This document shows positions 32,892 to 56,382 of a stretch of 64,000 nt of DNA, piece after piece. Where the stretch lies: positions 62,001 to 126,000 of the forward strand of contig JAQSEB010000047.1 in the NCBI GenBank assembly GCA_030063045.1, read 5' to 3'. The position numbers and the translations under genes were made by a program. Below the pieces are notes generated by a model that did no database searches, had not been told where the DNA came from, and saw only the letters and a list, made by a program, of their open reading frames with translations. Position 1 is the first letter of the stretch; every line of letters starts with the position of its first letter. This stretch comes from Pratylenchus scribneri. Taxonomy: Eukaryota; Nematoda; Chromadorea; Rhabditida; Pratylenchidae.

Positions 32892-35066
32892 ATGAGTTGG
32901 TCTCAACAAAATAAAACTCTATCGGCTGTAGAAATTAGGAAGACACATTTGTTCGATGTTTCAACTTCCAGGTTTGTGAATATTAATTAAATGAATATTA
33001 AATGCTAATTTTATTTTAGTTTCATCAATGATTTTGATGACCACAAAAAGGATGAACCAACGATGACGACGGCTGATCAAATTGATGAGAAACAAAATTC
33101 AACATTAATTTCTTCATCCGATGAAATTTATGATTCAACATATTTGAACAATTGTTTGGCGATTGCAACGAATGATCAAGATTTGACGGTGCTCGATTTG
33201 GGCAATGGACAATGCATCAAAAGAGAAGGTTCATTTAATCAATTATTTTGGTTTTAATCATAATTTAAAAGGACATAGTCAAAGTATTTTGTGTGTGGAC
33301 TCGCCGGACTGGGATAATTCAATGTTGGCTTCCGGCTCCAAAGACAATTCCATCATTTTTTGGCGACTCAAACAATTGAAAACAATTCCAATGGAAATTG
33401 ATGGAGAAGAGAATGAAATGAATTCAAATCTAGCAGAGAAAATTATCGACCAAATTGGTATCGCCACCGGACATACTCATTCAGTGACCAGGTTTATTTT
33501 TGAATAATTTAATTAATTATTAAATTTTAGCATTGCATTTTCCCACTCCAAAACATTGCCATTTTTGGTCAGCGTCGCCCACGATTCAACCCTAAAGCTT
33601 TGGGATCTCACAAATTTGGCTGTAAAACAAGAGAAAGGCGAAGAAATAAAAAATCCGTAAGAAAGTGCACTTTTTATTATATTAAAATTTAAAAATTGAA
33701 GATTAAAAATCCAAACTTCTTCCACTGTTGTGGCCCATTCCAAGGACATAAACAGTGTGGATGTGAGCGAAAATAACAAATTATGTTTGACCGCCTCAAT
33801 GGACAAAACTGCAAAGCTATGGCATATTGATAAAAAGAAGAAGGAATTGACGCTGGCTGCCACCCTCGAAGGCCATAAAAGAGGGGTTTGGTGCGCTCGA
33901 TTCTCCAAAAATTTACAGGTTTCAAAAAAATTCTCTAAATTTATAAAAATAATATATTATAAATTTATGCCGAATTTGGAATAATTCCAGTTTTTTAACA
34001 TAAATAAATTCCAGTTGGTGGCCACTTGCAGCGGTGATTGCACAATCAAATTGTTTTCTTTGCTCGACCAAAATAATTGCATCCGAACATTGCAAGACCA
34101 TCAATTCGCTGTTCTTTCGGTTAAAATTAATTATTTTTCAATATTTTAGAAAATTATTTTTAAGGTCCTTTTCATCGACAATAGCACCAAATTGGTTTCG
34201 GTGGACGGCGGTGGACTCATCAAGATTTGGGATGTTCAAAAGGGAATTTGTGAGAAAACGGAGGAAGGCCATGAGGAAAAAATTTGGTCTCTTCGAGCAT
34301 TGCCGCCAATTGAAGAAGAATTGTCCAATTTGGCAAAGCCAAAAGCCCGTTTTGCGACGGGCGGGGCTGATGGCCGTTTAATAATTTGGGAGGACAAATC
34401 CGAAGAATTGAAGCAAAAAAGACAAAAGGAAATGGCCAAAAGGGCAACCGACCAACAAACATTGACAAATTTGTTGGATCAGGATCGTCTTTTTGAGGCG
34501 CTGGTTTTAACCCTGGATTTGGACCAACCATTTCAGTCAGTTAAATTAATTTTTACAAATTTTTGTAAATTATTATTTTGGTAGATGTTTGAAAGTTTTG
34601 AACAAATTATTTGAAGGAAAAGAAGTAGAGGAAAATATTCACGAACAAAAATTAATTGAATTAATAAAACGGCTGAATTCCATCCAACTTTCCAAATTGC
34701 TCGATTATGCCGCCCAATGGAATACGAATACACGGACATATACGGTTTGAACAAAAAAAAAGAATTAATATTTATTTATATTTAAAAAATTTAATTAAAA
34801 TATTTCATCTAATTTATTTACAATTTTTTAGATTGCCCAAATTGTTTTGAATTGTGTGCTAAAAAGTGTTCATCCGAATCAAATTCTAAAATTGCCGAAT
34901 ATCCAAACAATCATTGGCGGATTTTTATCCTATTCGATAAGGTTTTATTTTTTATTTTACACATTTTCTTTCAGCAAATTTTAGGCATTATGAACGGCTG
35001 AAGAATTTACGCCGGAATGCAGCCCATTTGGATTATATGTTCACAAAAATGCGAATGTTGGATTGA
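32892..35066 (+). CDS. TBL3: UTP13/TBL3 WD40 protein, apparently lacking most of the first beta-propeller
   Basis: Component of the UTPB module of the SSU processome (18S rRNA maturation). The ATG at 32892 directly follows AAATTTAG, a good trans-splice acceptor. WD repeats: [47 protein letters not shown] with [75 protein letters not shown]. The UTP13 C-terminal domain is clear ([63 protein letters not shown]). Human TBL3 has two propellers; here only about one blade precedes the second one, and the 130-bp gap to BCS1 leaves no room for more exons. Either a truncated homologue or a split gene. Confidence 0.85.
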
Positions 35067-35226
35067 AAAGATATTTTTTAAAATTATTTGTTGATTTTTT
35101 TTTAAATTTTTTAACTGTTTAAATTTGTTAAAAATTATTTTTCACAATTCTTTCATGGTTAATGACCAATAATTTATAATTTTTCTTACATCAATTTCCT
35201 TTATTTATAATTTTCATTAAAGAATT

Positions 35227-37554
35227 ATGGAAAATTCAAATAATAATAATGAGGCTGGAAATGGAGACGAGGAAATGCCGCCTCTCGATGATATTATTGT
35301 GGAAGAGGAAAAGCAAAATGATGAAGGATTTGTGGCCGTGAAAAAGGTTAACTTAGATTTAGAAATTAATTTGATATATTTTTGGAGTGTTAATAATCTG
35401 TAGAATTAAAATTAATTAAAAATATTGTTGAATAATAAATATTTAATTTTATCTTTTTTTAATAAAAATTCCTACCATTCTCAAATATTTAAAAATTAAT
35501 TAATTTGTCAAATATAAAAATGATTTTTCCATTTAAAGAATGATCGAAAACGAAAATCGCAAGCCATGGATTTGGAGGAGGACCCAACAATGGCAGAAGA
35601 ACAATTCCCGGAAGGAAAAAGGGCCAAACCAAGTGCAGAAATCCGGAAAGTTTCGGTGCCCACGCATCGATACCAGCCATTGCGAAAAAATTGGCAAAAA
35701 ATTGTGGCACCGGTGGTCAATGAATTGAAATTGCAAATCAGGTAATTTAATTTTAAAATTATTCGAAATATTATTTAAATTTATTATGAAGATACAATTT
35801 GAAGACCCGCAATGTGGAAATTCGCTCCCCAGACGAGACCAATCCAAATCGGACATATTTGCAAAAAGCAGCCGATTTTGTGCACGCATTTCTCCTTGGA
35901 TTTGAATTGGACGATGCAATTTCACTCATTCGATTGGATCATTTGTTCATGGAAAGCTTCGAGATAAACGATGGTTAAATTTTTATTAAAATATAAAAGT
36001 CTAGTTAATTAACAATATTTTTTACAATTTGTCAATTAAAAATTGGCTAAAATAAATTTAAATCTAATTCAAATTCTTTAAATATTTTTTAAATTTTCGC
36101 AGTTAAAACTTTGCGTGGCGACCATTTGAGCCGAGCAATTGGTCGAATTGCGGGCAAGGATGGACGCGTCAAAATGACAATCGAGGTAGGAAAACAAAAT
36201 GATTTAATTTTTATAAAAACAAACAAAAAATATTTTATCTATTTTCATCATTTTCCATTTCAGAATGTGACAAAAACGCGAATTGTTTTGGCCAATGACA
36301 AAATCCATTTGCTTGGGGCATATAATAATTTGCAAGTGGCCCGCCGCACAATTTGCAGCCTCATTATGGGTAAATTTATTTATTAAATTGATTTATAATT
36401 GTAATTCTGATTTGTAATTGTAATTCTGATTTGCAATTGTAATTGTAAATTCTGATTTGCGATTGTAATTGTAAATTCTGATTTGCGATTGTAATTGTAA
36501 TTCTGATTTGCGATTGTAATTGTAAATTCTGATTTGCGATTGTAATTGTAAAATTCGGATTTGTAATTGTAAAATTCTGATTTGCGATTGTAATTGTAAA
36601 TTCTGATTTGCGATTGTAATTGTAAATTCTGATTTGCGATTGTAATTGTAAAATTCGGATTTGTAATTGTAAAATTCTGATTTGCGATTGTAATTGTAAA
36701 ATTCGGATTTGCGATTGTAATTCTGATTTGTAATTGTAATTGTAAAATTCTGATTTGTAATTGTAAAATTCTGATTTGCGATTGTAATTCTGATTTGTAA
36801 TTGTAATTGTAAAATTCTGATTTGTAATTGTAAAATTCTGATTTGCGATTGTAATTGTAAAATTCTGATTTGCGATTGTAATTCTGATTTGTAATTGTAA
36901 TTGTAAAATTCTGATTTGTAATTGTAAAATTCTGATTTGCGATTGTAATTCTGATTTGTAATTGTAATTGTAAAATTCGGATTTGCAATTGTAATTCTGA
37001 TTTGTAATTGTAATTGTAAAATTCGGATTTGCAATTGTAATTCTGATTTGTAATTGCAATTGTAATTCTGATTTGCGATTTTAATTGTAAATTCTGATTT
37101 GCGATTGTAATTGTAAAATTCTGATTTGTAATTGTAATTCTGATTTGCGATTGTAATTCTGATTTGCGATTGTAATTGTAAATTCTGATTTGCGATTGTA
37201 ATTCTGATTTGCGATTGTAATTGTAAATTCTGATTTGCGATTGTAATTGTAAAATTCGGATTTGCAATTGTAATTCTGATTTGTAATTGTAATTCTGATT
37301 TGCGATTGTAATTGTAAAATTCGGATTTGCAATTGTAATTCTGATTTGTAATTGTAATTCTGATTTGCGATTGTAATTGTAAATTTTGATTTGTAAATTA
37401 ATCCTCCTCCCCCACCTTAATCCGTTTATATCTCCCCAAAAAGGTCATTCCAATTCCAAATATTTAATCCCCCATTCATTTTTTAGGCACGCCCATCAAC
37501 AAAATCTACGGAAATCTTCGGAACCTGTCCAGTCGGTTGGCGGAACAACTTTGA
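35227..37554 (+). CDS. PNO1: PNO1/Dim2 KH-domain ribosome biogenesis factor
   Basis: 40S assembly factor that works with NOB1 at the 18S 3' end. Start 35227, stop 37552-37554. Conserved blocks: [71 protein letters not shown], then [39 protein letters not shown], and the final exon [22 protein letters not shown]. All match human PNO1 closely. The acidic N-terminus is poorly conserved, as usual. Most introns are 50-190 bp, but the last (36370-37486) is 1117 bp and is almost wholly satellite repeat. 160 bp after UTP13, same strand and same pathway, suggesting co-transcription. Confidence 0.94.
36396..37396. repeat. AT-rich satellite array 1, inside the last PNO1 intron
   Basis: About 1 kb of tandem units built from TTCTGATTTGCGATTG, TAATTGTAA and TTCTGATTTGTAATTG, roughly 17-27 bp per unit, with variants AAATTC, ATTCGG and GCAATTG. 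Same family as the arrays at 45.0 and 50.5 kb, oriented like the latter. Reading frames through it (up to 294 codons of Q/N/I/T/Y/S/K/R repeats on the minus strand) are artefacts of the periodicity. Confidence 0.95.
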
Positions 37555-38158: not shown

Positions 38159-41100
38159 TCATTGGTTTTGTTGAATTGACATCAATGATTCTATGCTATG
38201 ATCCGAAGACTGGGAAGGCTTGTTTTGGTTGATTTGTTGCACAATGCTTTGCTGAATGGCAGCAATTAATGTTGGTGTGAGGCCAGCGAATGGGTTCCTT
38301 AAAATGTTCACATTAATGAGAAACTTTTTGGTTTTGTAGTTTGGATTTGGACTGATTAACATTTTGATAATTCAACGAATTTCCCTTCAATCAACTCACA
38401 TTATTTCCATAGGATTCTTTTCCAATACACCTCCTCCTCCCATTGTTGCGACCAATGATTCAATCAATTGGCTAAATTCTGCCATTCTAGTTGCTTGTTG
38501 TTGTTGTTGCTGATTGGCCAAAATGATCGCCTGTCGTGCAATTGCCATTTTCTCCATGTTTATGGCCGCCTCGAGGGACAATTGCGAAAATGGCGGAATG
38601 AGGGTCGACAATTCCATCGGAATAGCTGCATTTTGGGCGGCTGCCATTGTCGGTAACAAAGATGGCGGCGATTGAATAATCGGCGAAACTGTTGTTGAAG
38701 AATCGGAAGATGTTGCCGGAAAATGCAAAAATGGGAAACTTGGAGATGGAAGTATTGGGTGTTGGGGCGGCGTCGGAATGGCCGATGAAGCCAAGAAATA
38801 AGGTTGCTGCTGGGGACGATCAATTTGGGTTGATTGGACGCATGCCCTATTTTCCATTGTCATTGCCGGCTTTCGTTGTCGCTTTCGCCCCATTTGTGCC
38901 GCCTTTGTCTTTTTCCCATCTGCTGCACATTTTTGGCCAATTTGGGCGGAATTCAGTGACGGCGAATTGCACAATTGAATGGCATCAATTCCTTCCTCCA
39001 TCTGCTGATTAGTGCCTCCTTCACGTGCCTTCTTTTGTCTTCGACGAAGCTTTATTTGTGCGGCCATCAGTTCGCGCCGTTCCACAACAAGAACGCAGTT
39101 TTCACATTGGCATTGACGAAAAGGGCATAGAGACTAAATTAAAGAGGGAATTGAATATTTTCAAAAAGAATTATTGAGAAAATATCAAAGAAAAATGGAC
39201 TAATTTAGAGGAAATGTAAGGAAAGTGAGGGAAACTTTTTGCTGAGAAGCTTTTGTCCCCGAAAAGGATTAATAAAAATTATTTTTATTTGAAAAAATGG
39301 CTCCATTATTTTTCTTTATTTATAACCGCCTCACCTTTTTGTGGCCCCGCAATGCACTTTCCACTCCATGGGCATTGCAACGGGCACAATTTGGATTCCG
39401 TGGTTTTGGCCCATTTTGTGGCCCTTTCCCTCCTCCATTTTTGCCTTCGCCGGGTTTTCGTGTGCTCAACGCATTGTTCAATTTCCTTCTTCGCTCCACC
39501 ATATGGCATTCATTGCATTGGCAATCTCGATACCGGCAAAATGGCTTGTGGCCTTTTCGCGGGTGTTCCTGAAAAAAATTCAAGAAATGATTGAATTTCT
39601 GATTATATATTGACTAACTCGCTACTTTCCCTTCCCTCATTATCCTTCTATTTATTTACCCACCTCTTTATGGTTTAAGCATCGTTGGCAAAAATATTTC
39701 TTGTCCTTTTCTTCACCGCCCCAACAGCTACTTCCGGCTGAATCCGAGCCTAGACCATTTCCTGCAAGGCGAAGACCGTCCAAAGGTGGCATTGGCGTTG
39801 TAGTGCACGAAAGGACGTCGATTTCGGCATCAATTGATTGGACGGAGCCGGATGATTGGGGCGAAGTTGAGGCGGAAGTGAATGGCGATGAAACGGCAGC
39901 TGAAATTGAGTTGGAATTGAAATTATTTTTAGGGTAAATATTAAAGGGAAATGAAGATTTGCTTGATGAAAGAGAGGGGAAATCAGACAGTTGGCCCTCT
40001 TTGTTGGGCCTGTCTAGAAAAAGGCGTTTAATTGGGGCCCAAAAAGTGTAAACAAAAAGAGAAGGGGCCAAAAGGAGTTCCCCCAACTTTAATCCATCAA
40101 ATGTTCCCTCTAATCCATTCCCATTTCAATTGCAACATTCTCTTCAGTCAGATTATTTGCCCTTTTATTTTGACAGACATTTTTGCCAATTAAATTAATC
40201 CAATTATATTCTAATAATGAAGAATGAAGATACTTTAATCAATTAATCCAACTATCCCATCCATTCCAATTTTCATTTTGGCCAAAACACACAAAAATAT
40301 GCAAATCTTTAAAACAATTTCCCCACAGACCTCCTCAGTCCTCATACTCAATTCCTTCCTTCCTTTCCATTCCACCCATCAATTCATCTCTTCCTTCTTT
40401 TCATTTCCCCAAGCAAGGTTGCCTTTTTGTTCCCCCTTCCCTTCCCTTCCTTCCTTCCTCCTCAATTTCCCCTACAGTATACCCATTCTCCCTTCCTTCC
40501 ATTCCTCCTATCGGTTCAGGGAAAGGGGTAAACCCTAATGGGGAAGGGATTTTGTTGCAGAGGATAAAAAGTGCAAATTGGACCGGTGGGAATTTTTCGG
40601 ACAAATACAAAATTGGCCAATTGGGTGGTCTTCTAATCAGCATCAGCAGAGGTGTCTTTTATGGGAAAGTGGAATAGATACTTCCAAATAATTTCAGTTT
40701 AAACAAAAACTAATTCTTTATTTAGCTATCAAATTTTGGAATGAATGAAATAATTGCTTCGATTGATCAAATCTTTTTCATTGAATTCATTCATTGCCTT
40801 TTAATAATCTGAGCAAAAACCAAAAATTGCCTAGCCGATTTCTTCCACCAATCATTTCAATGAATTTTTGCCCAAAATATTATAAAGGCCCCACCCAATC
40901 TTAGGGCTCATTTTTCTTGAAAGGAACGATAGGGTTTTTTTTTGATTGGCGTAAAATTTGCACAACCATAAAAATACTCAAGAAAATGACTTTTGGGGGA
41001 GGAGGTGGGACATAAATCCACCCATTTGGGACAACCGCCAAAAAATAAAATATTTATATGCTCGAATGCTTGGAATGGGAATGGAATTGGTGAGAAAGAC

Positions 41101-41581
41101 ATATGGATGGATGGGGAACCAAATCGAAAGGATACGGTGGTGGAGAATTGAGAAGGGAAGTGGGAATGGGATACATATTTTCGGCGTTATAGGCGATTGG
41201 TGAACTGCAATTTACTAATTAATCCATTATATTATCCAATCCACTAAATCCAATTAATCACAAATCCCGAGACACTCTAATTAGTGGATTAAGGACATTT
41301 GCATTGGAGAACAATTTCTTATATCAAATTTAATCCAAAAACATGAAAAGTGGCAGATTAGATGGAATGCCTTATTTTTGGGAGAAGGGCAAAATTATGG
41401 CCCAAATTTATGTTATTTTATTGTCAAATTTGAACTCACTTTCATTGCCTCCTCCTCCTCCATTGTTCGCCATTTCCTCCTTGAATTTGGCAATTGAAGA
41501 AGTGGCAAAAATCGGCGATTGTTGATTTGTCATTCGAGTTGGCGGCATTGAGGGTGGCTCACATTTTTTAATGTCGATCAT
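38159..41581 (-). CDS. mab-3: mab-3-type transcription factor with two DM domains
   Basis: DM-domain (doublesex/mab-3) regulator of sexual differentiation. Five exons close exactly in phase: 41440-41581 (142), 39664-40013 (350), 39335-39568 (234), 38400-39133 (734), 38159-38297 (139) = 1599 bp, 532 residues. The first DM domain spans exons 2-3: KYFCQRCLNHKEEHPRKGHK PFCRYRDCQCNECHMVERRR KLNNAL. The second spans exons 3-4: NPNCARCNAHGVESALRGHK KSLCPFRQCQCENCVLVVER RELMAAQIKLRRRQKKAR. All zinc-binding Cys/His are present. Tandem DM domains and LMAAQIKLRR are hallmarks of nematode MAB-3; DMD-3 also has two, so the exact paralogue is not settled. The C-terminal part is Pro/Ser/Gln-rich and longer than in C. 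elegans MAB-3. Exon 1 (MIDIKKCEPPSMPPTR...) is separated by a 1.4-kb intron and is supported by its donor and phase. Upstream lies the cluster of GLI/TRA-1-type sites. Confidence 0.9.
40622..40630 (-). promoter_or_regulatory. GLI/TRA-1-type site in mab-3-like intron 1
   Basis: TGGGTGGTC on the plus strand, a perfect 9-mer match to the GLI-family consensus GACCACCCA, inside the 1.4-kb first intron. Confidence 0.6.
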
Positions 41582-42157
41582 TTTTGGTAGAATTGGGATT
41601 GATTTTGGATTGGGGTTACTTTTCTTTGCGGAAAATTGTTCGCCGGAATTTAAATGGGGGAAAAATGAATGAATGGAAAGAAAATGGAGGAAAATGCGGC
41701 TTTGGAATTTGAATGCGTTTTATAGGACATTTGATGAAATTGGGAATATTTGAGAGGGAAAGAATGGGGGAATATTGGATTGTTTAATGGAAATTCAGCG
41801 CAGAAAATGAAATGCAAAATTTAAATTGAAGGAAATATGCGAAAATGGCTGCTCCATCAAAGTTGGGCCAGCCAATTTATAGGCGCCGGATTGCGGGTTC
41901 AGGGCCACCCCTTTTGGCAGCTACAGCTTTTTTTTCCCGTGCCCAGCATTGAGACTTTGAGGGTGGCAGGCCGCGCCCCTCATTTGCCCTTTTGCCCCCT
42001 CCACTTTGGATGTGCTTTTGCCCGCCCCTTGGAGGGTGGCCTACGAAAATGTTGGAATGGGGAAGGGGGTCGAGACAAAAAACCCTTCCAAAATACAAAT
42101 GAGAATGAAGAATTGGCGGCGAAAAGGGCAAAAGGGGAACAACCACCGGCAATCGGC

Positions 42158-42760
42158 TGGCAGAATGGCTAGCCGGCCGGCTGGCTGCACTCTTCGCTTT
42201 TTTTGAGGGTTGCGAATGTCGAATGGGCGGCGAAATGGAGACGGCGAGGGCAGTCTACTGCCTTTTTCCCCTCATCCCCCACTCCACTTCCTCCCCATTT
42301 TTCGCCAATGCCCCGCCCAAAAAAGGACCACCCAAGGGGCCAAAAGAGGAGACTGGCTGCTTCACAAAAGGGACACAAAAAAAGGACCTCTCACCCCAAT
42401 GAAAAGGGCAATCAACCAGCAGAGAGAAAGAAAAGAAATATTATTTGGGCGCAAATGTTGCTGCCAGCCGGCCTCCCTTTCATTCCCATCCTGCCAGCTG
42501 CCATTCTTCCTCTCGCCATTCTTTCCCCTTTTTTATTGCTGCCAGCCTATTCTATTTTCCTCTTTTCAATTTCTCATTGCCTTCCATTTTTCGCCCAACC
42601 AATTTTCCGCCTCGCAGCAATTTTTAGCTGCCAGCCTCCCCCTCCCTCCATCCATCCATTCCCAACTCGCCCATTTTTTGTTCGCCAGCCATTCTCAATT
42701 CCCTGCGCCTTTTCATTCTCTTTCGGCCGGCTGCCCATTTCCATTTGCCTTCGTGTGTGG
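42158..42760. repeat. Cluster of CTGCCAGCC / GGCTGGCAG motifs
   Basis: Occurrences at about 42158 (GGCTGGCAG), 42460 (GCTGCCAGCCGGCC), 42537 (GCTGCCAGCC) and 42628 (AGCTGCCAGCC), with near-variants CTGCCAGCTGCC at about 42490 and CGGCCGGCTGCCC at about 42725. More copies lie at 44343 and 44376 and at 58008. Spacing is irregular, so this is a dispersed motif and not a satellite. Confidence 0.55.
42326..42334 (+). promoter_or_regulatory. GLI/TRA-1-type site, proximal upstream region of mab-3-like gene
   Basis: Perfect GACCACCCA, 745 bp upstream of the mab-3-like start codon, on the opposite strand to the gene. Confidence 0.55.
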
Positions 42761-42918
42761 CATTCGCAACACTAAAAGGGGAGGGGGAGGAGGCCGAAGA
42801 CCGGCTGGCTGGAAAAAAAGTGAGGAGGTAAAAATGGGAAAGAAGAGTCGAGAGCGTCGACCGATGATGGGCAAAAAAGTGGTTGGTGGAAGGGAATTGG
42901 GCCGGCGATGGATTGGAT

Positions 42919-42930
42919 GGGGGGGGGGGG
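42919..42930 (+). repeat. G12 homopolymer
   Basis: A run of twelve G in the gene-free region. Confidence 0.9.
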
Positions 42931-44146
42931 AATAGATTGGGCGATGGAAGGTCGAAAGTTGATTGGGAATTGGGGATGGGTTATTTGTTGGAATTGGTGG
43001 GCAATTTATGGGCCATAGAATGTTTTTGGGGTGGATGTTTTAAAGGGAAAATGGGGTGAAATGGTTTTGTGATTAGATGGAAAGAGGGAGGGAATCGGGA
43101 ATCGCTGATTGGAAGGAAAAATTGAGAGGGCCAAGAAAATGGACCAATCCGCCGAGGGCATTGGATGATTTTTGTATTGGGAGAAAAACAACAAAAAAAA
43201 CAATAATAAAATATGCATTATTTTTGGGTGGATCCATTTTACATAAATTTATTCATTCCTGGGAATGCCCTTTCCCCCCTTTTGGGTGGCCAAATTGACT
43301 GCATTTGTTTTTCCATATTTTCCTCTATTAAATATGCTAAAACAATGCAAAAACCCACCAAAATCCTTTATGGAAAAATGCTGAAAATGTGGGCAGACAA
43401 AATTGGAATAAAAAGAACTTTTTTGGCAGCAAATTTAAGCGGCTTAAAGGGAAGAAAAGGGAAGGAGGAAGTTAAAACGAAAATTCAATCCCCCTCCCTC
43501 AGCAGATTGGGTATCGGGATTATATTCGTGGCGAAGTCAATTCAATAAATCCTTTAAAATTGTACATTCATTAATTGATTCCATTAAATTAAATCCTTCA
43601 AAAGCCGAATTCATTGTACCGCCCAATTATGGATGTGTCGGGGTTAATGTTCGAATGTCAATTTTGGTGAATCTATGGGGATTAAAGTGCGAAGATCAAG
43701 GATGTGCGAAAGGTTGTTGCTCTCAAATTGTTGCGCAGCCTTCAAATTATTTATTATGGAGAGAATAATTCACAACCAAAATATGGAACCACAAAAAAGT
43801 AAGAAATATTTTTTTAGGTTATCAAAATGAAGAATGGATGAATGAATGAATGAATGAATATGGAGGAGGAGGAGGAGGAGGAGGAGAAGGTCGTTGTATG
43901 GTCGGTTGGTTGAAGGAAGAATTGGCGAAGATGAAAAAAATGGGAAGAAGGGGACCCGAAAGGAGGAAGAAGGAGTCGTTTGGAAGGAGAATGGATGGAG
44001 GAAAAAGTGTTGCGAAGGAAAAAAACCGCTCCTCCTCCATCGCCATCGGCGGCAGCACCAAATTCTCCCCAAGGGCCAGCCGCCTTCCCCCCAAGCAAAC
44101 ACGCGAGCGGGCAAAATGGATGGATGGAATGGGAATGGGAATGGGA

Positions 44147-44160
44147 GGGGGGGGGGGGGG
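44147..44160 (+). repeat. G14 homopolymer
   Basis: A run of fourteen G following GGGAATGGGAATGGGA, so the whole stretch is a strong G-quadruplex candidate. Confidence 0.9.
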
Positions 44161-44967
44161 ACCATCCATTCAGCCAGCCGGCCCCCTCAACCCGGACCAC
44201 ACAAATCGCAACAAACACAGGGGAGGGGCAAGGGGACAGCCGGCCGTGCTGGGCGCCGACGACCGACGAATGAGGAGGAAAAAAGGAGGAGGAAGAAGAA
44301 AAGGGATGTGATGTGAATGGGGGAAGAATTGGAGGGGCAAAAAAACAGCGGCTGGCAGCAACCGAAGCTGCTGCTGCCAGCCGCCCCTCAATCTTAGCAG
44401 CAGCCGAACTAAATAGAATGGAATGGAATTGGAGAATGGACCCCTTTCTTCCAACGAATTCCCCTTTTTCGCCTATCTTCGTTGCATCCCTTCATTCAAT
44501 CTTCTTCTTCTCATCATTCCCCTTCTTCCATTTGGCCTTGAGGGACCAAAAGCAAAAAAAAGTGGCGAAAAAACTACTCGTTTCTTCATTGCGCTTCTTT
44601 GTTGTGTATGAAATGAATGTTCATTTTATGGTTCGGGCCAAAAATCATTCAATGGTCTCTCGACCAATTTTTGAATGAGGAAAAATGGAAGAACATTTTG
44701 CCTGGGAATGGGAATCCATAAAAGGGAATCTGACCAAGAAATTGACATTTTTTGAAGAGGATTGACAAAAAAACGGCATTTGCGGTGATTTTTAATGGAA
44801 AATTTGAGGACCAAATTTTAGTTGAAAATATTCAAAGTGAATGATGCCTAAAGGGCAAATCAGCAGGTGATTTCACTTTTTTTAGTGATATGATATATAA
44901 TAGGGGAATCCCGGGGAATATTTGCCGGGTTTTTGATTGGTTTAAAATTTTTTGCTAAAATATCTCC

Positions 44968-46201
44968 TCAGAACAGGCGGAATTAAATTGGGGAAAATAG
45001 GCAGAAATCTCAATTACAATTACAAATCAGAATTACAATTACAATCGCAAATCAGAATTACAATTACAATCGCAAATCAGAATTACAATTAATCGCAAAT
45101 CAGAATTACAATTACAATCGCAAATCAGAATTACAATTACAATCGCAAATCAGAATTACAATTACAATCGCAAATCAGAATTACAATTAATCGCAAATCA
45201 GAATTACAATTAATCGCAAATCAGAATTACAATTAATCGCAAATCAGAATTACAATTACAATCGCAAATCAGAATTACAATTACAATTACAAATCAGAAT
45301 TACAATTACAATTACAAATCAGAATTACAATTAATCGCAAATCAGAATTACAATTAATCGCAAATCAGAATTACAATTACAATCGCAAATCAGAATTACA
45401 ATTACAATCGCAAATCAGAATTACAATTACAATCGCAAATCAGAATTACAATTAATCGCAAATCAGAATTACAATTAATCGCAAATCAGAATTACAATTA
45501 CAATCGCAAATCAGAATTACAATTACAATTACAAATCAGAATTACAATTACAATTACAAATCAGAATTACAATTACAATTACAAATCAGAATTACAATTA
45601 ATCGCAAATCAGAATTACAATTAATCGCAAATCAGAATTACAATTACAATCGCAAATCAGAATTACAATTACAATTACAAATCAGAATTACAATTACAAT
45701 TACAAATCAGAATTACAATTACAATTACAAATCAGAATTACAATTACAATCGCAAATCAGAATTACAATTACAATCGCAAATCAGAATTACAATTAATCG
45801 CAAATCAGAATTACAATTAATCGCAAATCAGAATTACAATTACAATCGCAAATCAGAATTACAATTAATCGCAAATCAGAATTACAATTAATCGCAAATC
45901 AGAATTACAATTACAATCGCAAATCAGAATTACAATTACAATTACAAATCAGAATTACAATTACAATTACAAATCAGAATTACAATTACAATTACAAATC
46001 AGAATTACAATTACAATTACAATTACAAATCAGAATTACAATTACAATCGCAAATCAGAATTACAATTACAATCGCAAATCAGAATTTACAATTACAATC
46101 GCAAATCAGAATTACAATTACAATCGCAAATCAGAATTACAATTACAATCGCAAATCAGAATTTACAATTACAATTACAAATCAGAACAGGCGGAATTAA
46201 A
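44968..46201. repeat. AT-rich satellite array 2, inverted, flanked by 20-bp direct repeats
   Basis: About 1.2 kb of units AATTACAATTACAATCGC and AAATCAGAATTACAATTAAT, the reverse complement of arrays 1 and 3. The array (about 45008-46187) is bordered by TCAGAACAGGCGGAATTAAA at 44968-44987 and again at 46182-46201. Variants alternate between TACAATCGC and TAATCGC units, giving a higher-order pattern. Confidence 0.95.
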
Positions 46202-46892
46202 ATCACAGAATTTTCTCTGGGTTTTTGTATCCGAATGTCGGGGTTTAGCATTTAAGAGATAGTATCCCTACCTTTTTATATCTTTATAAGAGAATAAAAA
46301 TAACCCTCAAGCATCAATTAAAATGTCACTGCTTGGCCAATAAGGGAAATTTGCATTTGTTTGTATTTTGATGAAATTTACAAAATTATATTTGATATTT
46401 TATAAAATATCAACACCTTTATAAAATATAATATCACGCCCCATTTTTAGCTGATTTTAATTTGCGTTTTCCGCCTCCACATTTTTTGCCATACGCAAAT
46501 TATTTAAATTTTTTAAACATTTGCGCTTTACGTAGAATTTTAAAATTTGACAAATTTTGACGGAAAGGGTGAATTGGATTTTGGGTACATGACGAAAAAT
46601 TATATTATGGCCTCATGCTGCATAATAATTCTTGGTAAATTTTAGGGAGGAGGGATTGGGTGGGGGCAGCTGGATGAATGGAAAAAAGGAGGAAAAAGTG
46701 CACGCGAAAAATGGCCAATTCTCGATGACTTGAGATATTTTATTTTATTAATAATGTTTCCATGCGATCATTTCTTATTGGGTAGCAAAAAAAAAGACCA
46801 AAAAATAAAAAGCAAAACCCCACAGAGGGAAGTTAAAAGGAACACATTCCGGACACGTGAAAAATTGGTGAAAATGATGGAATGGATGATGG

Positions 46893-48369
46893 GACCACCC
46901 AAGGCGGATTGGGCTTCATTCTCATTCGAATGGGAATCTAATTTTAGAATAGCATTGAAATTGACATTAATCCCCTGAGGATATATTCCCTTGGCATTGT
47001 TTCCGAATTTCTTTTCATTCTTTTTATTGGAAGACTTCGCTCAACAATTTTACTTTTATTTGGAAAATAAAACAATTATTGCACAATCCTGGAGATGAAA
47101 TCTAGTTCATTCTACCACCCAATCATTGAATTGATGAAATCCCCATTTTGTGTTGATGGCACAAAAAATCACATCAAATGCAAATTTGTTAAATTTCCTT
47201 TCCAAAAGACATTTTATTTTACCCTCAATTTCAATTTGTGGTTTGTGTTGCGCACTTTTAGAGCATAAAATTGACGAAATGAAATTTGTGAATTTGATGT
47301 GAGGTGGGTTTTGGGTACGGCTTATACGGCATCAATTTTTGCGTGCCAAAATGACTGCTGCGAAAATTTTGATTGAATTTAAATTGAATTTCAATGAAAT
47401 TCTCTCAGCCAAGGACCACCCGGATTATTTTTTGCAATTATATTTCAGTGATTTGCACTTTTAAAATGGCGGCTGACTTTCCCATTGGCCAATAAAAATT
47501 AGTCAACTTTTTTCATTAATTTTCAATTATTCCTCGATGGATTGTTTATGTATTTGTTGCGCACGAAATTATGGCAAAAACCAGTCTCAATTTATTCCCA
47601 TTTTGCGTGTAAAACAAATAATTTGATGGCCACTTAATTCGGTTTCGGGGGAAAATTAGATTGGAAATATACAAAAGGGCGGAAATGGACCACCCTGGGG
47701 ATTTGCCTTAGAAAAATGCCTCCAGGGTAATTTACGATTTCAGCCAAAGGTTTGCGTGCCTTTTCCATTTTTCATTCCTCAAATGGGCAAATGGCATTTT
47801 GCGCCAACACAGCCCTTTTTGGGCTATTATTTTCCGCCAACATTCCCCCTTTTGCCTGTTGCGCTAAATTTGAATCCGGTTGGCCAACATTCTCACTTTG
47901 GCCTGCCATTTTCTTCCCGAGGGAGCATTTGGAGCAAAAATAATTGGGTTTTGGGTGGTCAAGAGTGGAATGGAGAGGGGCAAAAAAACAAATTCGCAAA
48001 TGTGTTGGCGGAAATGGGAGGAAAGGAAAGATGGAGGACCACCCTGAAAGGAAGGAATAAAGCCAAAAAAGCATTGCTTTATTACATTTTTGGAGGAAAT
48101 AAACTAAAAAGCCAGGGAATATTGCCTTCCATATATGGAATTGGCAAAAATTTAATCAAAATTATTCAATAAAATTTTGCATATTTCCGGTGCCCTATCG
48201 GAATTCATAAAATTTGCATTAAAAAGCCATTCGCAAGAATTCATTAAATTAAGGCCAATTTGGAGAGAAGGAGGGGACCACCCAAAATGTCAAAATTCAA
48301 TCTTCAATTTTCCTAAAAAATGTTCAGCAATTTTTTTGCAAAATTAAAATTGAATTTGGAGACCACCCA
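46893..48369. promoter_or_regulatory. Dense cluster of seven GLI/TRA-1-type GACCACCC sites
   Basis: Perfect GACCACCCA at 46893, 48276 and 48361, and as TGGGTGGTC at 47952. GACCACCC with a different last base at 47414 (G), 47688 (T) and 48037 (T). A one-mismatch GGCCACCCA lies just outside, at about 48659. The cluster is 5.3-6.8 kb upstream of the mab-3-like start. No coding signal is found here. The motif is the core bound by GLI zinc-finger proteins, including nematode TRA-1. The extended C. elegans TRA-1 preference (T-rich block 4 bp before the core) was not found at the sites I checked. Confidence 0.65.
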
Positions 48370-49876
48370 GCCAGCAACAAATTCGCCTTGGCCAAATTCT
48401 ATTAAATATTCTTTGGCCCAATTTGCGTGTTTCCGGCCAGCAGATGGAAATTATTGGCGGCTATGAATCGTCCGCTATAATTAATTTTTGCCTTTCTTTC
48501 AATGGGCGATTGGGGGGCGGTGTTGGAAAAGGACAAATGGGCAAAAAATGGAATAATGGAAAAAATGGCAACCATAAAAACTTCAATTTCGCAAATTTGT
48601 TTCGAGAAATGATGGAAGGAAATGATGACGAGGAGAGATGAGATTATTGTACTGAATTGGCCACCCAAATACGATAGGCTTCACCCCATCCGCCACCCTC
48701 TCTTTGGGGGCTCATTAATTCAACAAAAGCCACATTCTCTCCATTTTGAATTGGATTCCCGGAATTCACACAACCTTTGGTGGCCAATTTTTTATATTAA
48801 AAATGAGGGAGGCAGCAATTTTTTGCAATAATTTCGCCCCAATTCCTTCGCGTTTGATTTGGCAACCAGCATAAAAGAGTAACATGATTCTAGGAAACAA
48901 TATGGGAGAATGAGATTTGAGATTGGAAGAGCGGACCACACGCGGAATATAAGCTAATAAAAGGAATGTGGGAATGAAATTTAAATAAAATAATTAAAGG
49001 AAAATAAAAAGGAAAATGAATTCAAAAATCGAATAAATAATAATTGAAGTGGACGGTTATTCTGGAAAATGTTTTGTGCAAATTTAATTAAATTGAACTG
49101 AGCAAAAATTTCGCAAATAAATTGGAGGATAAAAAGTGATAAAACATTTAGGAGAAAAAGTGGGTGTGAGAATTGGAGAATGAAAGGAAAAATTGCATTC
49201 GATTTAGTCAGTCGATTTTGATTCCCCTTTTGGGCAAATTTAAGTAATATTTCCAAAGGGGGACTGGCAGAATGGAAGGAGTGGAGTACGAAGAACAGTT
49301 GTCGAGGAGAAAAACCAATTGAAAGATTGAAATTGGAAGGAAGAAAGGCACATAATTTATAATTTTTTATTATTCTTTGTTCATATTTTTATTCCAAAAG
49401 ATAAACAAATTGACTGGACTACGAATTTTAGGTGTAAGTTCAACGAAAAACTAGTTCTGACTGGCAAAAATGCCCAAGTGAAGATTTATGCCGGAGGAAA
49501 GAAGCCTTCCTTCAATTTGGCCCCTAAATAACAGGGAGGAATGTGGGTGGCCTAAAATTGGTGAAGCAATTGAATGGAAGGCAGATTGAAGGTCCAAAAC
49601 GATGGAATTTGTTGGCCTTTGGTTGGAAATTTGGGACTGTGAAGAATGAATAAAAATGGCCATTTATTTTGCCCATTGGCCCATTCATTTTGATGGCCAA
49701 TTCCCCACCATCCATTCCACTCTCCATTTCAATGCCATCATTCCTTCACAATTCCATCCAATTCGCCCATCCCTCCATCCTACTCAAAAGCCATCATTTT
49801 CATCGTCGCTGATAGGCTGCTTTTTTTGCCTTTCCCATTTGCCATCCTCCCAAGACCAATTCCATCGCCCATGTTG

Positions 49877-49885
49877 CGGGTGGTC
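49877..49885 (-). promoter_or_regulatory. GLI/TRA-1-type core, distal
   Basis: CGGGTGGTC on the plus strand (GACCACCCG on the minus), eight of nine bases of the consensus, next to the C20 run. Confidence 0.4.
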
Positions 49886-49911
49886 CAATGGCCTTTGTTC
49901 GGCCCGCTCTT

Positions 49912-49931
49912 CCCCCCCCCCCCCCCCCCCC
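49912..49931 (+). repeat. C20 homopolymer
   Basis: A run of twenty C in the gene-free region; the true length in the genome may vary. Confidence 0.9.
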
Positions 49932-50505
49932 TTTATTCCACCAATTCTATTCCCATATTTCAGCCCTATTTTATCGCCTTCCGACGGGGCAGCCGACCAT
50001 CCGCCAAAACACAAATGAAATGGATGGATTCACTCGAAGGGGTGAATTTGTTGTTTTCTAACCCCACCCCTACTATTTTTCTTTGTGCAAAAAATGGGGG
50101 CGCAATTGTTTGCCGTCTTCATTTTCGTCTTTGCCGCTTTTGGCCAGCCGGTCGTAAATCTGTCCAAACGGGGAATGGAAAATGGGCAAGGAGGCAGGTC
50201 ATTGGCTGAGAAAGGGGAATTGAATGGAGAGTGGAGAGGGATTTAAATTGGAAACGAATAATAAAAGGTGAAAACTGAAAATATTGAGCAAAATAATCGC
50301 CCGATGTGCAAATTGCAATTTTTATTTATCACCTAGGATGATTGGAGCTGATTGAATGGAGAAAAAGTGGTTGAATTCGAAGACAGTCTAAAAGGGGCTC
50401 ATATTATTAGAAAATGATTAGAAAGGTTGGATGAATTTAATGGTGTTGGGTATAAAAATGATTATGATGTTGCTTTAGGCATTTGAGATTTATAAATTCC
50501 ATCTG

Positions 50506-52750
50506 TTCTGATTTGTAATTGTAATTTTGATTTGCGATTGTAATTGTAATTCTGATTTGTAATTGTAATTGTAATTCTGATTTGCGATTGTAATTGTAAT
50601 TCTGATTTGCGATTGTAATTGTAATTCTGATTTGCGATTGTAATTGTAATTCTGATTTGTAATTGTAATTGTAATTCTGATTTGCGATTGTAGTTGTAAT
50701 TCTGATTTGCGATTGTAATTGTAATTCTGATTTGCGATTGTAATTGTAATTCTGATTTGTAATTGTAATTGTAATTCTGATTTGCGATTGTAATTGTAAA
50801 ATTCTGATTTGCGATTGTAATTGTAATTCTGATTTGCGATTGTAATTGTAATTCTGATTTGTAATTGTAATTCTGATTTGCGATTGTAGTTGTAAAATTC
50901 TGATTTGCGATTGTAGTTGTAAAATTCTGATTTGCGATTGTAGTTGTAATTCTGATTTGCGATTGTAATTGTAATTCTGATTTGTAATTGTAGTTGTAAT
51001 TCTGATTTGCGATTGTAATTGTAATTCTGATTTGCGATTGTAATTGTAAAATTCTGATTTGCGATTGTAATTGTAAAATTCTGATTTGCGATTGTAGTTG
51101 TAATTCTGATTTGCGATTGTAATTGTAATTCTGATTTGCGATTGTAATTGTAATTCTGATTTGCGATTGTAATTGTAATTCTGATTTGCGATTGTAATTG
51201 TAATTCTGATTTGCGATTGTAATTGTAAAATTCTGATTTGCGATTGTAATTGTAAAATTCTGATTTGCGATTGTAGTTGTAATTCTGATTTGCGATTGTA
51301 ATTGTAATTCTGATTTGCGATTGTAATTGTAATTCTGATTTGCGATTGTAATTGTAAAATTCTGATTTGCGATTGTAATTGTAATTCTGATTTGCGATTG
51401 TAATTGTAATTCTGATTTGTAATTGTAATTGTAATTCTGATTTGCGATTGTAGTTGTAAAATTCTGATTTGCGATTGTAGTTGTAAAATTCTGATTTGCG
51501 ATTGTAGTTGTAATTCTGATTTGCGATTGTAATTGTAAAATTCTGATTTGCGATTGTAGTTGTAATTCTGATTTGCGATTGTAATTGTAATTCTGATTTG
51601 CGATTGTAATTGTAATTCTGATTTGCGATTGTAATTGTAATTCTGATTTGCGATTGTAATTGTAATTCTGATTTGCGATTGTAATTGTAAAATTCTGATT
51701 TGCGATTGTAATTGTAAAATTCTGATTTGCGATTGTAGTTGTAATTCTGATTTGCGATTGTAATTGTAATTCTGATTTGCGATTGTAATTGTAATTCTGA
51801 TTTGCGATTGTAATTGTAAAATTCTGATTTGCGATTGTAATTGTAATTCTGATTTGCGATTGTAATTGTAATTCTGATTTGTAATTGTAATTGTAATTCT
51901 GATTTGCGATTGTAGTTGTAAAATTCTGATTTGCGATTGTAGTTGTAAAATTCTGATTTGCGATTGTAGTTGTAATTCTGATTTGCGATTGTAATTGTAA
52001 TTCTGATTTGCGATTGTAATTGTAAAATTCTGATTTGCGATTGTAATTGTAAAATTCTGATTTGCGATTGTAGTTGTAATTCTGATTTGCGATTGTAATT
52101 GTAATTCTGATTTGCGATTGTAATTGTAATTCTGATTTGTAATTGTAATTGTAATTCTGATTTGCGATTGTAGTTGTAATTCTGATTTGCGATTGTAATT
52201 GTAATTCTGATTTGTAATTGTAATTCTGATTTGCGATTGTAATTGTAATTCTGATTTGCGATTGTAATTGTAATTCTGATTTGCGATTGTAATTGTAATT
52301 CTGATTTGCGATTGTAATTGTAATTCTGATTTGCGATTGTAATTGTAATTCTGATTTGCGATTGTAATTGTAAAATTCTGATTTGCGATTGTAATTGTAA
52401 AATTCTGATTTGCGATTGTAATTGTAATTCTGATTTGCGATTGTAATTGTAAAATTCTGATTTGCGATTGTAATTGTAATTCTGATTTGCGATTGTAATT
52501 GTAAAATTCTGATTTGCGATTGTAATTGAAATTCTGATTTGCGATTGTAATTGTAAAATTCTGATTTGCGATTGTAATTGTAAAATTCTGATTTGCGATT
52601 GTAATTGTAAAATTCTGATTTGCGATTGTAGTTGTAATACTGATTTGCGATTGTAATTGTAATTCTGATTTGCTATTTAATTGTAATTCTGATTTGCAAT
52701 TGTAATTGTAATTCTGATTTGTAATTGTAAATTCTGATTTCCGATTATAA
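50506..52750. repeat. AT-rich satellite array 3
   Basis: About 2.25 kb of units TTCTGATTTGCGATTG plus TAATTGTAA (about 25 bp) with variants TAGTTGTAA and AAATTC. Recurring longer blocks (for example similar unit order at about 51.1-51.4, 51.6-51.85 and 51.98-52.2 kb) point to higher-order repeats of a few hundred bp and amplification in blocks. The left boundary, AATTCCATCTGTTCTGATTT, resembles the border of array 2. Confidence 0.95.
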
Positions 52751-54326
52751 ATTCCTTATACTTATTCGGTGAAAAAGGGAAGTAATGCGGGGGTTACTGT
52801 ATGTGAGATGCCCTTAGGGCATGGATCAAATCTGTCATTTCTCCTTTATTTATTTCTCCTTTCCCATTCAAAATACTGTAGAAATGAAATAGGATGTGAA
52901 TGTGAATTTAACTTTAGGGCAGGTTCAATGTTAATTTTCTTTGCCCCATGCCCCTTCAAAAATTTTGAATAAGTGAGAAGAGGAAGGAGAAATGTTGATT
53001 GGAATTTTAGAAAAAAGCACGGATAGTCAACTCGAAATAAGTGAATCAGTATTGGCACTGGCACAACAAAATATTCCACAAAATGCATTGCCGAAAATAT
53101 AAAAGTAATTCATTTTTTCAAATTATTGTAATGGTAGATTACTCTTTTTATGTTATGACAAACGTTTTATTTTCGTATTTTTATTTTAGAGTTGTTTTAT
53201 TGTACAAAAGATTTTCCAACCCAAACTAAGTGGAATTTCACTTAGATATAAATTAACATCAATCAAATCTCTAGAATATATTTATTTGTGTATTAAATAT
53301 GTATAAATTTTTTGACGAGTACAAAATTATTTTTCCAACACGGGAACGGAGGGAAGTGATTGTGAGCAAATTGGCAAATACAAAAGGTGGCGGGAGAGGA
53401 GGGAGAATTCACCGATGGATTTTTAATTACATTATTAATATAATTTTCTTCACTTATAAAATTTTGGAAATGAGAAATGGGACCGGGAATGCTCTAGGAA
53501 TTTGAATTTACAACATTGGGGGAAATTGTACGAAATGGAGAAAGGCACTGGGGACAAACACATCCGGGGGATAAAAAATAATTCATAAAATAGTTTGCAG
53601 GGGCAATTGGGGAATTTAATTGGTTGATTTGGCAATTGGGACCAAAGAAAGGGTTTAAAAAACAGTGAACAATGCCAAATTGGAGAGCATTTTTCAAATT
53701 AACCACAAATGATTGGACACGTTTATAGAGGGGTAGAATGGATCACTGTGGATGTGGGGTAGGGTATTGCTAAAAAAAACACAATAAAATTTCCCATTTA
53801 TTTCGATCGCACCACATAAAAGAAGTGAATTCTTGCAAAGTTTTTATTTGGGAGGATAATTGACAACAATAATATGTGAAAATGAAAAAGGCAAATAATC
53901 AATTCATATTCAACCGGGAATCAATATAAGGGGATATAATGATCAATTTAGTGTGCAAATGTTGGACAAAAAATTGTAGGGAAGGAGTATAAAAATAATT
54001 GGGAAAATAATGAAATAATTTGTGAGAATTGTGATTTTGTATACAATTTGGAAGCCGAATTGAGGCAAAATTGATGATGATGAGTGTAGATTCACCGGAG
54101 AGAATAAAAATTGGATGAATAGATAAATGGAGAAGGAAAAAGAGGAATATATGGACACTGTGTTCTAACAAAGTGAAAAATTGTAAAAGGGAATTGGGAA
54201 GGAAGGCTCCAGAATGCAACAAAGATCACTTCCTGGAATTGACACAATTCATTCATCTTTTTTTGATTTCATCCATTCTGGAGCATTTTTTTTGGATTTG
54301 ATTGATGAGCATTCATTCAACTGCTG

Positions 54327-56382
54327 TTATCGCCTTGTGGTTGGAGGAACAGATTCCTGAAAATAAAATAAATTTATTTTTGATGGCATATTTATATTCT
54401 AATCCTTTATTATTTCCCAAAAACTGACCATTGTGATTGGCCGTTTAATTTCTCCACTGCCATTTGAATTGCCAATGCCACCGAATCGAGTTGTCGGTCG
54501 GCCATTTGAAGGATTGCCAAGGGCAAATCGGTTATTGTTGTTGATTGTTCCTCCTCCAGTTTCAACTTTTCTTTTCCATGGCTGAGGCTGTGATCCTCCT
54601 CCATTGCTTGGATCGGCCACTTGGGTGATTGGCGATGAGGAGGCCATTGGCGGCGGTTGAATCAAATCCTCGGATGGAGTCAGGCACCGAGGCTGTTGGT
54701 GATGAGGGACTGTGCCAAGCACTCGGTAGATGTCATCCGCCTGGGCCAATTCCTCAAGCATTGGCAACAAATCGAGCAATTCCGTGTCATTTGGATCGTC
54801 AAACCATGTCCGGACGGCGATCTAAAAAAATTAATTAATTAATTAAAATAAAAGCGCCATTTGATACCTTTATTTTTGCCCTAATTGCAAAAAAATTTAA
54901 AAAATCATAAGCCCCCAATGGGAATCGAACCATTCTTGCCCTTTTCCCCATACACTAAATCGAACGACATACCACTGCGCTAATGGGCCATATAAATTAA
55001 TGTTTGCAAATTGCCCTATGTTCTTTCTTACTTTATAAGGGAGGGGCATCAATTTTATTTGTTTAGTACCATTCGCCATGAAAAAGTTAATATGACCAAA
55101 AATCCAGGGAAAAATAAATGCTACGAAATACGAATCGAGATTTACCCAATTTTTATTAATAATACTAGAAAGATGAAACTGACCGCATTGTCCGGATGGA
55201 AGGCATAACTAGCCGGTGAATTATCAATGATGACCACTTTTCGCAAATCTCTGCCCAATCGTTCCAAATCCTTTAAAATATAAATTAAATATTTTAATTT
55301 ATAATAAATTACCTTCACATAATTCCCTTCAAAAAAGACGCATGATTCGCGGAAAAGTCGAGTTCGAAAAATTCTCCGCTTATCAAGAAGATCTGCCACC
55401 GGATCCGCATACTAAAATTAAATTAATTTAAAAATAATTAATTTTAATATAGGATACCTTTGCTAGACTGGCTGTGAAAAGAATGCATTCAAAAAGGGAG
55501 CCAATCCGTTCCAAAAAATGGTCGGTGTGAGGCCTTTTGAGCACATAGACTTGATGAACGACGTTGTCAATTTCGACTGGAATCACAAAATCGGCATTTT
55601 TGACCGGCTAATTTTATAATTAAAAATTATTTAAATTTAATTTGCAAAATTACCTTAAATGAAGAATGGACCAGTGTTTCGTCCAAATCAACAATTAAAC
55701 ATTTTCGATTGGCATCCGAAGGCAAAACCCGTTGCAAAAGGAAGTGATGTTCTTGCTGGAAAAATAAAATTAAAAATATCTTAGATTTAAACCTGTCGTT
55801 TATTTTGTTCAGCACCCAAATTGGGCAAAATGTTGTTATTATTTGTGTTATTATTGTTGTTGTGGCCAATGCCGAGGACCAGTTGTGTTCCTTTAGAGGA
55901 GGTTTCGGGACGAGGCGCCAATCTTTGCCGGATTCCTCCAGATTTGATTGGTGACAACAATGCATTCGATGGTTGAGGACCGTGACCACCTTTGGTGGCC
56001 TGCGTAATTGGCAACGAAGTCCTTGGATCGCATCCATCTGCGGCAGAATTGGACGAATCATTCTCTAAAAACAGCAATTTTAATTATAATTGTATATTAA
56101 AATATGCTCACTTTTGCCGTAATTGTTTGGCCGAATGCAACAGCAAAGGGTATGCAAAAATTTGGGCATTGTACGGCGAGTTGAGGACGGCAATTGTTGC
56201 GATGGATGATGTTGATGAGGAGGGGGTGGTCTGCCTGTTGTTCCTCTGTTTCGAGCGCCCGAAGCTCTGGACGGCGGCGGGGGATTTTGGCCGGTAACAG
56301 CCAGCGCTTCACCTTTATTGGCCTTCTCTTGAGGAATATTCTCCGAATTCCGGCTATCCACTGATTCCGATGAGAAATTAAT
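54327..56382 (-). CDS. scpl-1: SCP-type small CTD phosphatase (HAD family)
   Basis: Dephosphorylates RNA polymerase II CTD Ser5 and other phosphoproteins. The catalytic block is nearly identical to human CTDSP1: [18 protein letters not shown] (DxDxT motif), [124 protein letters not shown]. The region before it ([11 protein letters not shown]) matches the SCP LFCCVC segment. The C-terminal extension of about 120 residues (Pro/Asn/Gly-rich, ending [13 protein letters not shown]) is unusual for the family. The first exon seen (from 56382) begins mid-ORF with [15 protein letters not shown], so a start exon lies upstream, perhaps at 59680-59892. Confidence 0.9.
54900..54995 (-). tRNA. tRNA-like sequence, probably degenerate, in an SCP phosphatase intron
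   Basis: On the minus strand, TAGCGCAGTGGTATG resembles an internal A box and GGTTCGATTCCC is a good B box, spaced as in a tRNA with a variable arm. The acceptor ends (GGCCCAT... and ...GGGGGCT) pair only partly, the T-stem needs an extra base, and I cannot form a clean anticodon stem. It is followed by T-runs on the minus strand. A tRNA pseudogene or tRNA-derived SINE is more likely than a working tRNA. Confidence 0.4.

Follow-up and report, generated by a model that had tools for sequence, protein, structure and literature searches.

In Caenorhabditis elegans a single TRA-1 site lies near mab-3, and in Caenorhabditis there is a single GLI protein. In C. elegans mab-3 is reportedly a direct target of TRA-1 (Yi et al. 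2000). TRA-1 represses mab-3 in C. elegans (PMC3789826, PMC13255598), and the fog-3 and fog-1 promoters carry several TRA-1 sites (PMC12719749, PMC13255598). In Bursaphelenchus okinawaensis, a nematode of clade IV that is reported to have two TRA-1 homologues, mab-3 expression is described as TRA-1-dependent, being raised in males and in tra-1 mutant males, and the same source counts few mutants and expression studies on nematode sex determination outside Caenorhabditis and Pristionchus (PMC9095866). A literature search that most subscription journals fell outside turned up no description of TRA-1 sites at the mab-3 gene of any nematode beyond Caenorhabditis. Here we describe a cluster of TRA-1-type sites beside a mab-3 gene in Pratylenchus scribneri, in a stretch of 64 kb (the window: bases 62001-126000 of contig C47).

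The assembly comprises 227,248,964 bases in 276 contigs, as in the published draft (276 contigs, 227.24 Mb; PMC10138993). Upstream of mab-3, the GLI-type core word GACCACCC occurs seven times within 1.5 kb. Such a dense cluster beside this gene suggests a strengthened version of the known female/male switch. More specifically, with a probability of about 0.62, we take the cluster to be a distal homotypic cis-regulatory module of mab-3, composed of separate sites for a GLI-family protein that is most likely the local TRA-1.

A dense cluster of sites upstream of mab-3

The sites and the gene are as follows (C104 is a homologous contig and C55 carries an older paralogue; both are treated below).

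40623 (minus), 42326, 46893, 47414, 47688, 47953 (minus), 48037, 48276, 48361, 49878 (minus) and 56224-56231 (minus): the GACCACCC sites in the window
46893..48368: seven-site GACCACCC cluster (46893+, 47414+, 47688+, 47953-, 48037+, 48276+, 48361+), four of the seven being the longer GACCACCCA
42326..42334, plus strand: GACCACCCA site that precedes the mab-3 ATG by about 745 bp, intact in C104
40622..40630, minus strand: GACCACCCA site in mab-3 intron 1, intact in C104
49878..49885, minus strand: distal GACCACCC site within a conserved noncoding element, at the end of the longest run (25 bp) identical in C47, C104 and C55
38159..41581, minus strand: mab-3, predicted model of 494 amino acids with two DM domains, an open spliced frame with GT/AG borders
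41581-41440, 39899-39664, 39568-39335, 39133-38400 and 38297-38159, minus strand: the five mab-3 coding exons

The initial annotation had listed ten core positions, six of them full-length GACCACCCA, with seven falling within 1.48 kb at 5-7 kb upstream of the gene. Exact counting recovers all ten (minus-strand positions shift by one base) and all six, and the seven span 1476 bp, 5.3-6.8 kb upstream of the mab-3 ATG. The annotation's statement that none occurred in the other 54 kb was wrong by one, the eleventh site being that at 56224-56231. These window totals, 11 of GACCACCC and 6 of GACCACCCA, compare with means of 0.51 (maximum 3) and 0.13, respectively, in 100 dinucleotide shuffles.

A count across the assembly had been proposed as a check, and we made it for exact words on both strands of all 227,248,964 bases. 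GACCACCC occurs 2652 times (1310 + 1342; one per 86 kb) and GACCACCCA 1083 times (541 + 542; one per 210 kb), so that the cluster is far denser than the genome rate. Because that rate is one GACCACCC per 86 kb, seven in 1.5 kb are far above chance: only 0.017 are expected in 1476 bp, the Poisson probability of at least seven at the genome-wide rate is 9e-17, and about 1e-10 runs as dense would be expected across the whole genome. Among the first 100 of the 2652 GACCACCC places (C1 and part of C2), inspected by eye, there are at most two in any 1.5-kb stretch, and among the first 100 of the 1083 GACCACCCA places (C1-C7) the densest group is three in 1.48 kb. Other DM-gene stretches are poor in the word: there is no GACCACCC in four of them, 10 kb each (on C87, C33, C50 and C32), and just one in 40 kb around the C4 match, one in 40 kb around that on C109 and one in 30 kb of C55.

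The densest GACCACCCA group just mentioned lies at C4:3059651-3061133; no gene was recognised there by eye in the list of open reading frames, which were not themselves searched.

The adjoining gene and candidate regulators

The gene beside the cluster had been called a two-DM-domain gene of the mab-3 type, and its protein bears this out. Pfam DM matches it in two stretches (119 bits), and its best matches are nematode proteins. In a tree of the DM region (42 rows, midpoint root, long branches flagged), the gene groups with those rows that carry the name MAB-3 or male abnormal, and the DMD-3 group is split off at 100/100; the dividing branch is very long, and the gene's place within the MAB-3 side is unresolved. 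The labels MAB3 (C. briggsae, C. remanei) and DMD3 (C. briggsae) in this tree were assigned by us, and the C. elegans and C. brenneri DMD-3 rows keep their source names. On the strength of this tree, identity as dmd-3 was rejected. Exon 2 has several possible acceptors, including 40013 and 39899, of which our model uses the latter. Compared with its copy on C104 (nonsynonymous divergence, dN, 0.011; synonymous divergence, dS, 0.06; 480 of 493 residues identical), mab-3 appears to evolve as under purifying selection.

The same genome encodes five-finger GLI-type proteins whose recognition helices are of the right kind. Searching with TRA-1 fingers gave at least 180 matches, and 150 of 328 candidates were scored. 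Among the loci inspected, at least eight have the GLI-type finger pattern (C14, C103, C35, C42, C11, C124, C95 and C231), a count that takes in none of C17, C196, C19 and C137, each with one good finger match. Fingers are near-identical in C14, C103 and C35; finger 1 was not found in C124, and C95 and C231 are more diverged. Some of the eight loci have altered helices in fingers 4-5. The C14 fingers match 2gli over the full length, with all five fingers (178 bits), and ZIC3 over residues 5-127 (95 bits); two zinc-finger 568 chains outscore 2gli in summed score, through repeated fingers. Fingers 4 and 5 make most of the base contacts of GLI. In C14, recognition positions -1, 2, 3 and 6 of both are identical to GLI, as is the whole helix of finger 5, and finger 4 differs by R-to-K at position 4 and, immediately ahead of the helix, by S-to-T.

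Specificity of the enriched word

Measured against 197 kb of other sequence from the same genome, GACCACCC is the most over-represented 8-mer of the 46.2-49.9 kb region, with 8 copies vs 0.084 expected, and its 24 one-mismatch variants are little enriched (4 in total vs 1.6). We also compared 1004 words that have at least five copies in 1.5 kb across 224 kb. After a flank filter intended to remove tandem repeats, 368 remained, and the five that rank above GACCACCC all come from one stretch (L021, contig C55) with 6-bp CTGTTC tandem arrays.

The seven sites do not look like copies of one another, as their flanks agree by 0.27 on average, which is about chance, and by 0.45 at most. The strong flank match of 48276 with 48361 is the same DNA, since these sites lie 85 bp apart, and the other matches between flanks are short (at most 16 bp). 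With unrelated flanks and no tandem array overlapping any cluster site, tandem expansion was rejected. Nor did a dispersed repeat come to light: in a search that skipped simple repeats and very common words, the segment matched only C47, C104 and, over 82 bases, C64:765398. A G precedes seven of the ten noncoding sites (p = 4e-4 at a G frequency of 0.18). Within the cluster, six of seven sites point the same way (p = 0.125).

These counts bear on the identity of the binding protein. The sites might be bound by another member of the GLI superfamily or another C2H2 protein (of ZIC/REF-2, GLIS or KLF type), or by a diverged TRA-1 paralogue outside sex determination, in which case the module would be non-sexual and would drive mab-3 or another gene. 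We regard this as unlikely, though well worth weighing. The genome does offer such binders, with many other C2H2 matches besides the GLI-type loci, and the shorter word CCACCC is enriched as well (13 vs 0.94 expected). However, 8 of those 13 are the full core, and it is the full 8-mer that is enriched, with G and A in its first two places. The ZIC-type core CCCAGC occurs once vs 0.8 expected. The GLIS-type core GACCCCCC is missing from the region, a count that says little because it is missing from the background too. Neither ZIC nor GLIS cores, the latter a weak control, were thus in excess as candidates for the enriched motif.

A further candidate was MAB-3 itself, whose binding site is given as AATGTTGCGA(T/A)NT (PMC6736625). 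Autoregulation found no support, as 40.1-50.4 kb has 35 matches at 9 or more of 12 positions vs 38 expected, and 5 at 10 or more of 12 vs 4.6. Taken by itself, TGTTGCG is found four times in 46.2-50.4 kb vs 0.34 expected (p = 4e-4, post hoc). At 49871-49885 the window reads ATGTTGCG, in which a sequence like the MAB-3-site core abuts the GLI core at 49878; full MAB-3 sites are not enriched in the region. Upstream of mab-3, 42156-42628 contains CTGCCAGC five times.

Conservation in a homologous contig and in older paralogues

Contig C104 is syntenic with the window at 90-95% identity and has counterparts of all 11 sites. All ten noncoding cores are intact there, with 0 of 80 core positions substituted vs 25 of 399 in the 20-base flanks (Fisher p = 0.009). 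From one site to the next, the spacing in C47 and in C104 differs by 0-30 bp. Rigid phasing has therefore not been maintained, which fits independent sites.

More distant comparisons come from three contigs with diverged DM exons, C55, C109 and C87, in which exon 3 has 80%, 76% and 57% protein identity, respectively. In C55, CLNQ stands where the window gene reads CLNH; for C109 nothing was found that matches the portion of the first DM domain lying in exon 2; in C87 the opening third of exon 3 is without match and RGHKK reads RDHKK. These are older mab-3 paralogues whose DM domains look eroded and which have retained an upstream element. Two elements are shared with them.

49850..50330, no strand assigned: conserved noncoding element, 67% identical in C55, 70% in C109 and 72% in C87, where it lies upstream of the DM exons
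44077..44427, no strand assigned: second paralogue-shared element, common to C55, C109 and C87

The first of these is found at five places genome-wide (five of five candidates), on C47, C104, C55, C109 and C87. The two elements are about 84 bp apart in C55, similarly near each other in C109 and C87, and about 5.4 kb apart in the window. The 49878 site is exact in C55 and has one mismatch (GATCACCC) in C109 and C87. Exactly kept noncoding sites thus number 10 of 10 in C104, 1 of 10 (49878) in C55, and none in C109 and C87. Either the C47/C104 line acquired the seven-site segment or the other line lost it.

Points against the module, and further alternatives

Several observations weigh against the module that we propose. 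The seven-site segment is absent from C55, C109 and C87, and even the 49878 core is mismatched in two of these three older paralogues (C109 and C87). The intactness in C104 is less striking when 68% of all noncoding 8-mers are intact there, which gives the ten of ten a p of about 0.02 if sites are independent; a shift test on eight sites between C47 and C104 gave 0.07, which is not significant; and C104 has an extra noncoding site at 731815, so that from its side 10 of 11 noncoding sites are shared. The extended C. elegans TRA-1 site is TTTTCNNNNTGGGTGGTC, with a T-rich block, which none of the ten sites has, as the initial annotation had already noted. At the C. elegans spacing, at most three of the five letters of GAAAA are matched, and two of the ten sites reach four of five if the spacing is allowed to move by as many as 3 bases. 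Finally, the species has been called parthenogenetic and came only from male-negative samples (5 of 39, and 0 of 61 male-positive, in one survey; PMC10981769), so that it may now have little need of a male switch. A karyotype catalogue instead gives protandrous hermaphroditism and a count of 12 for P. scribneri (PMC11555361), so that these sources disagree.

The initial annotation had read the locus as a conserved TRA-1-to-mab-3 switch. The identity of mab-3, a real and specific cluster, the presence of GLI-type proteins and the TRA-1 dependence of mab-3 in B. okinawaensis agree with that reading, and the seven-site segment, missing in three paralogues, does not; a 'conserved switch' therefore rests on the 49878 site and on the C47/C104 pair. 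That the enhancer is 'enlarged' relative to C. elegans is something we infer.

The neighbouring genes provide another possible target. Downstream of mab-3 is a PNO1-type gene, and upstream, at 54.3-56.4 kb, is a NIF-type phosphatase on the minus strand like mab-3, with its 3' end towards the cluster. (Within the 64-kb window, Rfam at gathering score and a tRNA scan gave no match.) The cluster sits between mab-3 and the phosphatase, and the site at 56224, retained in C104, is inside the phosphatase locus, so the module might instead target this gene, or an unseen noncoding transcript. We consider this improbable: with both genes on the minus strand, the cluster is past the 3' end of the phosphatase and on the 5' side of mab-3, and the element bearing the 49878 site has counterparts upstream of three further DM-exon loci, the genome search (five of five candidates) having found it at no other place.

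That the cluster is a functionless accumulation, by chance or mutation, is very improbable, for although neither the paralogues nor C64 (see below) have the segment and its intactness in C104 is only moderately significant, its density against the genome rate, its unrelated flanks and its failure to appear as an array or dispersed repeat all speak against this.

A proposed mechanism

We infer that a GLI-family protein, most likely TRA-1, binds the sites, that mab-3 is its target, and in which direction it acts. Several TRA-1 molecules would occupy the seven cluster sites, with assistance from the distal site (49878), the upstream site (42326) and the one in intron 1 (40623). TRA-1 would be active in females, and mab-3 would be kept off there; where TRA-1 is low, mab-3 would be expressed and male differentiation would follow. 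Repression in females is likely by analogy, because TRA-1 represses mab-3 in C. elegans. Activation is also conceivable, since in Caenorhabditis some genes can be activated by full-length TRA-1 (PMC12719749).

Satellite arrays and apparent loss of a mab-3 copy

Three arrays of one satellite family surround mab-3, the middle one inverted, and the family is also found beside a mab-3 fragment on C4.

36389..37393, plus strand: satellite array separating the penultimate and final exons of the PNO1-type gene, at the left end of the C64 deletion
45011..46187, minus strand: 25-bp satellite array between the proximal region and the cluster, opposite in orientation to the other two
50513..52730, plus strand: 25-bp satellite array beyond the conserved element, at the right end of the C64 deletion

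The region has three homologous copies, C104 and C64 being 95% and 90% identical, respectively, to window 53300-58300 (the phosphatase region); the published ploidy estimate for P. scribneri is diploid (PMC10138993). At C64:722001-728100, window 33010-37393 (87%) runs directly into 50648-53357 (88%) via one satellite array. C64 is thus without about 13 kb that hold the last PNO1 exon, mab-3, the cluster and the conserved element, and none of the 29 DM matches in the genome is on C64. The two window arrays that bound this gap share their orientation, and the loss apparently occurred by recombination between same-orientation arrays; misassembly across satellites is possible. The C4 match to mab-3 is a fragment of about 640 bp (88.8% identity) with stops, beside satellite. 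Because it is only such a fragment, it cannot serve to test the upstream region. As a guess, it could be a remnant of the mab-3 copy lost from C64.

These observations allow a bolder and decidedly doubtful proposal. The lineage would be parthenogenetic and its GLI/TRA-1 family multiplied; in this setting mab-3 might have acquired an array of many TRA-1 sites that serves as a cooperative, near-fail-safe lock on male differentiation, while one of three homologous chromosomes lost mab-3 via satellite recombination. If this were true, regulatory locking and loss of a male gene would coexist within one genome.

Comparison with known systems

If TRA-1 and mab-3 were linked at the sequence level in a Tylenchid, the part of the pathway that is most conserved would become open to direct tests. 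The cluster would also mark a switch to seek in the poorly understood sex determination of root-lesion, root-knot and cyst nematodes, and in a species described as parthenogenetic it would allow a test of whether the male programme is kept, silenced or lost.

Among the described systems, B. okinawaensis is likewise a clade IV nematode, and its mab-3 transcript is reported to be negatively regulated by TRA-1; the difference is that binding sites are not described in the main text of that account, where 'motif' does not occur and 'binding' occurs once (PMC9095866). With TRA-1 and mab-3 of C. elegans, the P. scribneri locus would share the target gene, the binding core and the regulator family, but it has seven clustered sites 5.3-6.8 kb upstream and three outliers, and lacks the T-rich block. 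The fog-3 and fog-1 promoters resemble it in that a homotypic group of TRA-1 sites would again stand at a male-promoting gene. Those, however, are germ-line genes with sites in their promoters, whereas P. scribneri is a distant nematode in which the sites would form a module far from the DM gene that they serve.

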